42,688 bases of DNA, taken from Sphingobacteriales bacterium (lineage in GTDB: Bacteria; Bacteroidota; Bacteroidia; Chitinophagales; Chitinophagaceae). A model generated the notes under the pieces. It saw only the letters and a program-made list of their open reading frames with translations, was not told the origin of the DNA and made no database searches. Position numbers and translations under genes: made by a program. Location of the stretch: the NCBI GenBank assembly GCA_023251235.1, contig JAHEZE010000017.1:1-42688 (forward strand), read 5' to 3'. Below, piece by piece: positions 32,908 through 35,020 of the stretch (positions are counted from its first letter, which is position 1; each line of letters starts with the position of its first letter).

Positions 32908-32930
32908 ACTCCACCTTAGGAGATGGGGGT
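32908..32930. repeat. Possible remnant element between hisD and hisG
   Basis: The 33-base gap contains ACTCCACCTTAGGAG followed by ATGGGGG. It looks like a worn copy of the palindromes (arms around CTTA, then a G run) but without a convincing stem. Listed as tentative. Confidence 0.3.
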
Positions 32931-33790
32931 TACATTATCATTTTTTCAATTGGAATAATCAATATTCCCTGAGCCCCATTTTTCTTTAGCTGCTCTATTA
33001 CATTCCAGAAATCAGATTCATTGATTACGGAGTGAACAGAGCTCCATCCTTTCTCCGCCAGTGGTAAAATAGTGGGGCTCTTCATTCCCGGTAATAAACC
33101 ACAGATGTCATCAAGCTTCTCATTTGGGGCATTCAGTAAAACATATTTATTATTCTTTGCTTTTTTTACTGATCGTATTCTGAATAAAAGTTTGTCCAAT
33201 AGTTCTTGTTTATCAGCCGGTAAATTTTTATTACTGATAAGAACTGCTTCCGATTTTAATACTGTTTGCAGTTCACTGAGTTCATTACTGAATAAAGTGC
33301 TGCCGGAACTCACCAGGTCACAGATGGCATCGGCAAGACCAATCCGCGGAGCAATTTCCACGGAGCCGCTGATTTCCTGGATAGTGGCCTGAATATTTTT
33401 TTCTTTTAAAAAAAGGGAAAGAATCAATGGATAACTGGTTGCAATTTTTTTTCCATTCAAATCTGAAATTGAATTGATACTGCTATTTCCCGGAGAAGCC
33501 AGGGATAGCCGGCATTTTCCAAACCCCAGTTTTTCTAATGATATCACATCTTTATTTTTTTCAGCCACTACATTTTCTCCTACAAAACCTATATCTGCCA
33601 CAGCATCCTGTACATATTCAGGAATATCATCATCCCTCAGGAAAAAAATTTCAAGAGGAAAATTGCCAGCCTGCACCCGCAACTGGTTATTACCATTGCT
33701 TACTTCAATGCCGCATTCTTTCAAAAGAGACATTGATCCTTCATAGAGTCTTCCTTTTTTTTGTACTGCGATTTTCAAATTCTCATTCAT
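32930..33790 (-). CDS. hisG: ATP phosphoribosyltransferase, long form
   Basis: The committed step of histidine synthesis, joining ATP and PRPP. From ATG 33790 the protein has 286 residues, the long HisG form, with a C-terminal ACT-like regulatory domain (about 210-286, GMKSPTILPLAEKGWSSVHSVI) that usually binds histidine for feedback control. Catalytic-domain signatures are LKIAVQKKGRL, the DDIPEYVQDAVADIGFVGENV segment and ISGSVEIAPRIGLADAICDLVSSGSTL (PRPP-binding). An ATG at 33823 would add eleven Lys-rich residues that are not family-like, so the later start is preferred. It is the first enzyme gene, 63 bases after the attenuator stem. Confidence 0.95.
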   Translation of the reverse strand: MNENLKIAVQKKGRLYEGSMSLLKECGIEVSNGNNQLRVQAGNFPLEIFFLRDDDIPEYVQDAVADIGFVGENVVAEKNKDVISLEKLGFGKCRLSLASPGNSSINSISDLNGKKIATSYPLILSLFLKEKNIQATIQEISGSVEIAPRIGLADAICDLVSSGSTLFSNELSELQTVLKSEAVLISNKNLPADKQELLDKLLFRIRSVKKAKNNKYVLLNAPNEKLDDICGLLPGMKSPTILPLAEKGWSSVHSVINESDFWNVIEQLKKNGAQGILIIPIEKMIM

Positions 33791-33848
33791 ATTTTTTTTC
33801 TTTATAAGTTTTTGCATTAACACACCACATATGGTGAACTGTAAATAA

Positions 33849-33878
33849 TAAAAAAGGGCTTACTAAGTGTAAGCCCTT
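33849..33878 (-). terminator. Attenuator (intrinsic terminator) of the his operon
   Basis: On the minus strand AAGGGCTTAC (33878-33869) pairs perfectly with GTAAGCCCTT (33863-33854) across a five-base loop, followed by a T-rich run. A 10-bp stem plus T tract between a His-rich leader peptide and hisG is the classic layout of a transcription attenuator. Stopping here would prevent expression of the whole operon when histidine is plentiful. Confidence 0.92.
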
Positions 33879-33913
33879 AAATTATGTTGTTACATAATAT
33901 CCTCACGGCCTAC
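33869..33913 (-). promoter_or_regulatory. Candidate antiterminator of the his leader
   Basis: GUAGGCC in the leader RNA (33913-33907), lying in the last codons of the leader peptide, can pair with GGCUUAC (33875-33869), the 5' arm of the terminator, over 7 bp with one G-U. A ribosome stalled on the His codons (33947-33930) would leave GUAGGCC free; a ribosome reaching the stop codon would cover it. CCUCA/UGAGG (33923-33919 / 33905-33901) could form a competing pause hairpin. A further hairpin, ATTATGT/ACATAAT, lies at 33881-33898. Pairing was judged by eye, without energy calculation. Confidence 0.6.
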
Positions 33914-33962
33914 CCTTATGAGGTAAGATATGGTGATGATGATTATGTATCTGATTAATCAT
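33903..33962 (-). CDS. hisL: his operon leader peptide
   Basis: A 19-codon frame encodes MINQIHNHHHHILPHKGRP and then TGA. Six of 19 residues are His (positions 6, 8-11 and 15), with five inside a six-residue stretch. A perfect terminator hairpin follows 24 bases after the stop codon, then hisG. The peptide itself probably has no function; its translation rate senses charged tRNA-His. This is the standard mechanism of enterobacterial his operons; here it is inferred from sequence layout. It begins 28 bases after the small lipoprotein gene upstream. Confidence 0.92.
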   Translation of the reverse strand: MINQIHNHHHHILPHKGRP

Positions 33963-33990
33963 GATTCAGTAAAAATAGTGAAATATTTGT

Positions 33991-34116
33991 TTAGGCCCTG
34001 AATTTTTTTGCTTCAACTGATACCATAGGGCAGCCATATTTGCGGGATGTGGCGCATGAACTAATTGTTATTACAAATACTAATAATGTAAAACCGGCTA
34101 AAATTTTATTTTTCAT
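33991..34116 (-). CDS. 41-residue lipoprotein of unknown function ahead of the his leader
   Basis: A 41-residue frame with a clear lipoprotein signal: MKNKILAGFTLL, a hydrophobic core, and the lipobox ISSC with Cys24. The mature peptide is only 18 residues, CATSRKYGCPMVSVEAKK and FRA with a second Cys in KYGCP. No acidic cluster follows the lipidated Cys, so surface export is not indicated. It lies 28 bases before the His-rich leader peptide, on the same strand, and must share its transcript unless a promoter lies inside it. I do not recognise the family. Such a short protein would usually be missed in annotation. Confidence 0.8.
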   Translation of the reverse strand: MKNKILAGFTLLVFVITISSCATSRKYGCPMVSVEAKKFRA

Positions 34117-34252
34117 TGTTTAAGGGATTTTTGATATAACGGGATTAACGCTTTTTTATTTCATAAAAGTAGGCAGATTTTATCGAAAACATCCCATTTC
34201 TTAAGCCATAATCTCGTACCTTTACCAGCTTTAAAAGCCCAATATTTAAATA

Positions 34253-35020
34253 ATGCTTCAACTTACAAAGCCCCTGGCTTTTATTGACTTAGAAACAACC
34301 GGTATCAACCTGGGTACCGACCGTATCGTTGAAATTGCGATTGTAAAAATTCTTACAGATGGTAACCGAAGTGTAAAACGAAAACTGGTGAATCCCCAAA
34401 TGCCAATTCCCAAACAGGCAAGCGATATTCACGGTATTACTGATGAAATGATAAAAGATGCCCCCGCTTTTAAACAAATCGCACATGAGTTGAAACAAAT
34501 GCTCGATGGCTGTGATATTGCAGGGTACAACAGCAACCGGTTTGACATTCCTATATTAATGGAAGAATTTCTTCGTGCTGAAGTGGAATTTGAAATGAAA
34601 GGAAGAAAGATGCTGGATGTACAACAAATCTTTCATAAAATGGAACAAAGGACATTGGGGGCCGCATATAAATTCTATTGCAGCAAAATTCTGGACGGTG
34701 CTCATGGCGCCGAAGTGGATGCAACGGCTACATATGAAATTTTCGAAGCGCAATTAGAACGATACCCGGAGTTGGGAACTACAATAGATTCCGTTTTAAA
34801 AACCATTGGTGAAGATGTGATCGTAGATTTTGCCCGCCGGTTTATTATGGATAATGGAGTAGAGGTATTCAACTTTGGAAAATTCAAAGGGCGGTCCGTA
34901 GCAGAAGTGCTTAAAACAGAACCTCAATATTATGACTGGATGATGAAAGGCGATTTTCCTCAACACACCAAACAAAAACTTACAGAAATAAGAACAAGGA
35001 GCCTGCTTAAAAAGAGTTAA
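34253..35020 (+). CDS. DnaQ-family 3'-5' exonuclease (DEDDh)
   Basis: A 255-residue protein. The exonuclease domain (about 5-170) has the DEDDh residues Asp12 and Glu14 (FIDLETTG), Asp98 (YNSNRFDIPIL), His151 and Asp156 (HGAEVDATATYEIF). The C-terminal 60 residues (FGKFKGRSVAEVLKTEPQYYDWMMKGDFPQHTKQKL) form a small helical domain often attached to such exonucleases in Bacteroidota. It is related to the polymerase III proofreading subunit, but a role in repair or RNA/DNA trimming is equally possible. It is divergent from the his operon, with 136 bases between its start and the small lipoprotein gene. Confidence 0.93.
   Translation: MLQLTKPLAFIDLETTGINLGTDRIVEIAIVKILTDGNRSVKRKLVNPQMPIPKQASDIHGITDEMIKDAPAFKQIAHELKQMLDGCDIAGYNSNRFDIPILMEEFLRAEVEFEMKGRKMLDVQQIFHKMEQRTLGAAYKFYCSKILDGAHGAEVDATATYEIFEAQLERYPELGTTIDSVLKTIGEDVIVDFARRFIMDNGVEVFNFGKFKGRSVAEVLKTEPQYYDWMMKGDFPQHTKQKLTEIRTRSLLKKS

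Follow-up and report, generated by a model that had tools for sequence, protein, structure and literature searches.

A gene for a putative Cys-Pro micro-lipoprotein beside a histidine attenuator, and its relatives in Bacteroidota

The stretch of DNA analysed here (the window, 42,688 nucleotides from a Sphingobacteriales bacterium) carries on its minus strand a small gene, predicted to encode a lipoprotein of 41 residues, directly in front of a histidine attenuator. The features of the locus are as follows.

34253..35020, plus strand: DnaQ-like 3'-5' exonuclease gene, divergent from the micro-lipoprotein gene and a conserved neighbour of it (open reading frame list, synteny and NCBIfam)
34164..34171, minus strand: predicted -7 box of the micro-lipoprotein gene, TACTTTTA (consensus TAnnTTTG), ending 47 nt before its ATG, at a position conserved in relatives
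33991..34116, minus strand: micro-lipoprotein gene, 41 codons and a stop, with lipobox ISSC, predicted lipidated Cys21, and Cys29 in Gly-Cys-Pro (open reading frame, relatives and purifying selection)
33970..33977, minus strand: predicted -7 box of the His leader, TATTTTTA, located within the lipoprotein-leader gap and ending 7 nt from the leader ATG
33903..33962, minus strand: His leader peptide, MINQIHNHHHHILPHKGRP (sequence and comparison of his loci)
33854..33878, minus strand: terminator hairpin of the his attenuator, 10 pairs followed by a T run (terminator scan)
32930..33790, minus strand: hisG, starting at ATG (the open reading frame list starts it at a GTG, 33823) and clustering with hisG of other loci

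Inspected by eye, 33854-33965 (minus strand) is a clear his attenuator, with a His-run leader, a terminator and a GUAGGCC that pairs alternatively with a terminator arm. The fold of the leader region (33840-33965, minus strand) has a z of -6.3 against shuffles. In the searched sequence, the his attenuator included, Rfam gave nothing at gathering threshold. The his gene names are, apart from gene order, ones that we take to be correct. For the exonuclease, the best NCBIfam models are of DnaQ/epsilon type, all below their cut-offs.

The open reading frame at 33991..34116 (minus strand in the window's list) encodes MKNKILAGFTLLVFVITISSCATSRKYGCPMVSVEAKKFRA, 41 amino acids with the lipobox ISSC. 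A preliminary description had proposed a hidden lipoprotein gene of this size, 28 bases from the His leader peptide on the same strand. Its coordinates and lipobox were found exactly, and 28 nt is indeed the distance read from the sequence between the stop codon and the leader ATG. The mature peptide, given there as 18 residues, has 21 when counted from the lipidated Cys21. Of 59 near relatives, 43 gave some match at E<=1 in a tblastn-type search with the window protein; the majority were weak, and the strong ones lay in the genus and the family. The best matches, L002-L010, cover most of the protein in the alignment, and these loci share the layout of signal peptide, lipobox and Gly-Cys-Pro. 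The conservation of the frame in related species, suggested earlier as a check, was borne out: the Gly-Cys-Pro design is common to the relatives, and pN/pS is 0.17-0.45 in ten same-genus pairs. Furthermore, when the 19 members of 41 amino acids are paired with each other, 169 of the 171 pairs have a pN lower than pS. The frame is thus under purifying selection, as a protein-coding gene would be.

We define the protein family by a lipobox Cys, a second Cys-Pro within about 9 residues and a mature part of about 12-35 residues. The window protein, with Cys21 followed by Gly28-Cys29-Pro30, belongs to it. The 80 family loci considered below are 80 of the 83 best-scoring rows of a profile search (down to G221, E 3.5e-10; G376, G414 and G318 were left out). 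Gly-Cys-Pro follows the lipobox Cys by 7-9 residues in 80/80, a conservation that is partly circular since the profile that chose the loci was built on rows with this motif; the mature part has 19-25 residues in 75/80. The Gly codons are GGT 36, GGC 25, GGA 18 and GGG 1, and the Pro codons are CCC 26, CCG 26, CCT 18 and CCA 10. Third bases are thus mixed across the 80 loci, and the motif is kept at the amino-acid level. All 80 also carry a lipobox Cys, preceded by Ser in 78 and by Ala in 2, as expected of a bacterial lipoprotein, whose signal peptide has a basic start, a hydrophobic core and this Cys. Judging by these features and the selection on the frame, we have next to no doubt that 33991..34116 is a real gene.

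The profile tally of 388/394 at E<=0.1 includes generic matches to lipoprotein signal peptides; the best 150 profile-match rows reach E 1.5e-7. A fairer test of the conservation is the order-wide scan, because that search did not ask for Cys-Pro. Here, short open reading frames were sought by their lipobox only, in 60 regions that precede the exonuclease gene in the order's other families. A Cys-Pro micro-lipoprotein lay beside the exonuclease gene or mpl in 31/60 (23 GCP and 8 TCP), and 10 motif-less frames were found at other places. Across the class, CPAY/CPTY-type variants occur in 132 of 247 genomes and 75 of 136 sampled genera (E<=1e-4). Thirty such loci were taken, and 27 were readable (L412, L422 and L423 have short flanks); each of the 27 encodes a short lipoprotein in which a second Cys is present, as Cys-Pro in 26 and as Cys-Ala in one. 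Cys-Ala replaces Cys-Pro in L305, L306 and L312, and the second-Cys motif is therefore not wholly fixed outside the family. The matches of the GCP profile in the phylum outside the order were rejected as a measure of prevalence, being mostly generic lipoprotein signal peptides. The GCP and CPAY types likely share descent, as position and design indicate and as family f18 and several order families, which bridge them, suggest; sequence alone is no proof of this. Relatives throughout the family and the order and, as Cys-Pro variants, in much of the class are well supported by these comparisons, as is the gene itself.

No family in Pfam, NCBIfam or PDB searches covers the micro-lipoprotein, which gave only signal-peptide matches below cut-off. 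The near-matches to O_Spanin_T7, the PG1828 family, BamI and PorK are artefacts of shared signal peptides; for the T7-like outer spanin (PF17531) the score is 15.1 bits against a Pfam gathering score of 25. Among the open-licence papers listed for motif words and for small lipoproteins, small proteins, YtxJ, LptM and bacillithiol in Bacteroidota, none describes the family. A gene in most sampled genera of a family, with variants in more than half of the sampled class genera, thus lacks a curated family, and the inventory of Bacteroidota envelope parts is to that extent incomplete.

The upstream side of the micro-lipoprotein gene is one conserved locus, and the downstream side changes. A divergent neighbour precedes it in 77 of the 80 family loci: the exonuclease in 40 (its strand miscalled in three), an mpl-like ligase in 31 and a third gene in 6, with three loci that differ. 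The exonuclease follows next behind the mpl-like ligase in 29 of these 31. The downstream gene is convergent in 41 loci and on the same strand in 38, and one locus has none. The same-strand genes are ytxJ (20), hisG (9), ubiX (5) and four others, after correction for L126, where the caller had missed ytxJ (19 to 20 for ytxJ, 10 to 9 for hisG).

The recurrent partner in unrelated neighbourhoods is ytxJ, which encodes a redox-active protein of the bacillithiol system (TIGR04019, above cut-off) with a CSIS site in the sequences found here. It is a separate soluble protein and no relative of the micro-lipoprotein. Among 70 ytxJ loci of the phylum, a Cys-Pro micro-lipoprotein lies directly upstream on the same strand in 5/6 of f22, 5/5 of f18, 5/9 of f1 and 0/50 of the others. 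The remaining 55, including all 25 of f24, have no such lipoprotein in front of them; the scan also flagged a frame in L326 of f24, which we dismissed as spurious, and its pattern overlooked L316, which was added after inspection by eye. The pair is kept behind differing genes. These are the exonuclease gene or mpl, a gene without NCBIfam match that is presumably saccharopine-dehydrogenase-like (3 of its 6 loci), ribH with lipA behind it (f22) and a presumably ung-like gene (L416 and L420). In addition, bshC lies 0.7-3.5 kb downstream of the lipoprotein in 12/80 family loci, and bshA two genes from a third micro-lipoprotein paralogue in three f27 loci.

The micro-lipoprotein appears to have its own promoter, as predicted from a conserved box. 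PMC6847099 describes the -7 box of Bacteroidota promoters as TAnnTTTG, the G lying at -5. This box ends 30-75 nt before the lipoprotein ATG in 38/80 loci, where 100 shuffles gave a mean of 3.6 and a maximum of 8. With TAnnTTTR the count rises to 54/80, against a shuffle mean of 9.7 and a maximum of 18. Most of the loci inspected showed no convincing -33 element, and a scan of the area for sigma70-type promoters showed no excess (4 against 2.8 in shuffles).

Where the product would reside can be approached from the residues that follow the lipid Cys. According to PMC12578637, the surface-exposed BamH-K have at least two acidic residues within six residues. In our 80 loci there are none at +2 to +7 after the lipid Cys, and hence no surface-export signal is seen. 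After lipidation, the lipoprotein would probably sit in the outer membrane and face the periplasm. BamH-K, the surface lipoproteins of the BAM complex, are likewise Bacteroidota lipoproteins, and their signal peptides gave weak NCBIfam matches here. However, as described in that source, they have hundreds of residues and the acidic export signal, both of which the micro-lipoprotein lacks.

The Cys-Pro thiol could form a disulfide or a mixed disulfide with an envelope partner, which would make the protein a small thiol-bearing envelope factor. Whereas the gene, its family, the selection, the synteny and the promoter boxes are seen in the sequence, lipidation, location, thiol chemistry, partner and the link to bacillithiol are inferred. 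We offer a thiol-based envelope function tentatively, as plausible but somewhat short of probable. A second Cys that is nearly fixed and a pairing with ytxJ that recurs are a testable lead to thiol chemistry in this envelope, the redox biology of which is little studied.

The micro-lipoprotein might instead be an assembly factor resembling LptM (formerly YifL) of the enterobacterial LPS translocon. It would then be a short lipopeptide that helps LptD, BamA or another translocon barrel of the outer membrane to fold, seated in the lateral-gate region of that barrel, and its Cys would be a bonus disulfide handle and no redox partner. The likeness lies in the very short mature part, the conservation close to the lipid Cys and the basic, outer-membrane-type N-terminus (net charge +1 to +4); LptM, a small outer-membrane lipoprotein of about 6 kDa in E. 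coli, has its conserved functional part near the lipid Cys, according to PMC10567701. Unlike LptM, the micro-lipoprotein has a second Cys followed by Pro, other neighbours and another phylum, with no lpt or bam gene seen next to it. It also has no above-cut-off match to LptM models: NF047847 gave a best E of 0.1 over 62 members, a signal-peptide match where the alignment was inspected, and PF13627 is not among the Pfam matches listed (25 of 34 families). We therefore consider such a role unlikely.

An outer-membrane lipoprotein of constitutive, structural or stress type, without a specific partner and with a conserved Cys that only dimerises, is an equally improbable alternative. It would suit a gene that forms a stand-alone transcription unit in most loci (convergent next gene in 41/80) and has a box-like promoter in the 54/80 given above. 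But the repeated ytxJ pairing and the near-fixed Cys-Pro exceed the needs of a spacer, and we prefer the thiol-bearing envelope factor.

Where YtxJ is present, this factor may be coupled to the bacillithiol system through it. In its strong form, the micro-lipoprotein would be the envelope arm of that system, a membrane-tethered Cys-Pro thiol in disulfide exchange with proteins of the envelope and with a functional tie to YtxJ, the cytoplasmic bacilliredoxin. If true, this would give the first membrane-anchored component of the bacillithiol system; we regard it as distinctly doubtful. Membership in the system is suggested by gene neighbourhood, and ytxJ is absent from the window genome. The gene is found in 0/6 genomes (the window genome and five genus mates), and the genus has lost it; bshA is kept in 6/6 and bshC in 12/12 of a wider set, so that the window genome has both. 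Since ytxJ is missing from all six, the lipoprotein does not need YtxJ. This dispensability, together with the many ytxJ genes outside three families that have no lipoprotein, is the strongest point against the link. Furthermore, YtxJ and bacillithiol are cytoplasmic and the lipoprotein would be exported, a mismatch of location that counts against coupling.

In the preliminary description, the lipoprotein gene was the first gene of the his transcript, with a product that would be part of histidine physiology. The 28-nt gap, the shared strand and the lack of a terminator-like site in a search of the gap speak for this, and the close arrangement of lipoprotein, leader and hisG recurs in four other loci (L060, L061, L063 and L068); Terrimonas ferruginea has this gene order too. 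Because the gap has no such site, transcripts begun at the lipoprotein promoter may run on into the attenuator. However, all of the 14 his loci have a box TAnnTTTG whose end lies 7-10 nt upstream of the His leader ATG, exact in 13; the window's TATTTTTA is the one that is a letter off. It is present at every distance between lipoprotein and leader, 25-1637 nt, including the loci at 447-1637 nt. The micro-lipoprotein, unlike the parts of a ribosome-mediated his attenuator (leader peptide and terminator), whose anatomy its neighbour at 33854-33962 matches, lies upstream of the predicted attenuator promoter, has no His codon and is no part of it. Whether short lipoproteins lie upstream of hisG in relatives had been suggested as a check. 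Relatives exist, yet hisG is next in only 9/80 loci; other loci have convergent or other downstream genes, and two loci of the window's own genus (L062 and L072) have the lipoprotein without his. With its own promoter boxes and this synteny against it, the shared-transcript reading is very improbable and was discarded. The short same-strand distance is thus no evidence of a shared transcript at this locus. The gene does stand directly before the attenuator, as first noted, and the suggestion that it is independent of it agrees with its upstream position and its own predicted box. In our judgement the micro-lipoprotein is very probably not a functional part of the his system, and the separation of the two is well supported. 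A regulatory upstream frame, whose translation controls the next gene and whose product is irrelevant, is scarcely credible and was dropped: the gene is short and directly upstream of a same-strand gene (ytxJ, ubiX or hisG among them) in 38/80 loci, but in 41/80 a gene on the opposite strand comes next, and signal peptide, lipobox and Cys-Pro are kept at the amino-acid level.

By the published box spacing, the His leader appears near-leaderless, with a predicted 5' UTR of 3-6 nt in 14/14 loci.

How the two came to be adjacent is suggested by intermediate arrangements. The order lipoprotein-ytxJ-cyclase-hisG is found in L106, L111 and L114, lipoprotein-ytxJ-hisG in L126 and lipoprotein-cyclase-hisG in L064. 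These intermediates suggest that loss of the intervening genes (ytxJ and cyclase) joined lipoprotein and his, a rearrangement to which the adjacency may be wholly due. The labels cyclase, EamA, GT2 (glycosyltransferase), ung-like, OsmC-like and MtaB-like on neighbour genes are ones that we presume. In an exonuclease tree of 67 rows, one 17-row branch (support 92/89, not starred) holds all in-line his arrangements that have an exonuclease row (8/10), with the four that have genes between falling in the same branch; ytxJ arrangements branch earlier. The three intermediate orders named above and the direct order lipoprotein-hisG, as in the window, all belong to this branch. On this tree, 4 changes are required for the label 'hisG in line', and therefore the adjacency arose more than once or was lost again.

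The explanation that we favour joins these parts. The micro-lipoprotein is the local member of a class-wide family with a signal peptide, a lipobox Cys, a second Cys-Pro and about 20 mature residues. Its transcription would begin at a promoter of its own, located between it and the divergent exonuclease gene. With ytxJ and cyclase lost, it would have come to lie beside the his operon, whose attenuator would start from a separate promoter within the 28-nt gap, and the product would be a periplasm-facing thiol lipoprotein. As a whole, this seems to us somewhat more probable than not.

Other arrangements of these genes were seen in passing. In f27 genomes (L377-L384), there are three paralogous Cys-Pro micro-lipoproteins per genome in separate neighbourhoods, with a LuxE-like gene and a response regulator, with an MtaB-like gene and with bshA, respectively. 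Tandem pairs of micro-lipoproteins about 30-80 nt apart occur in G852:C58, G842:C53, G973:C19, G783:C115, G834:C13 and G839:C96. In many class members (L407-L425), an ung-like gene lies divergently to the micro-lipoprotein gene, and an OsmC-like gene often converges on the latter, as labelled by eye.
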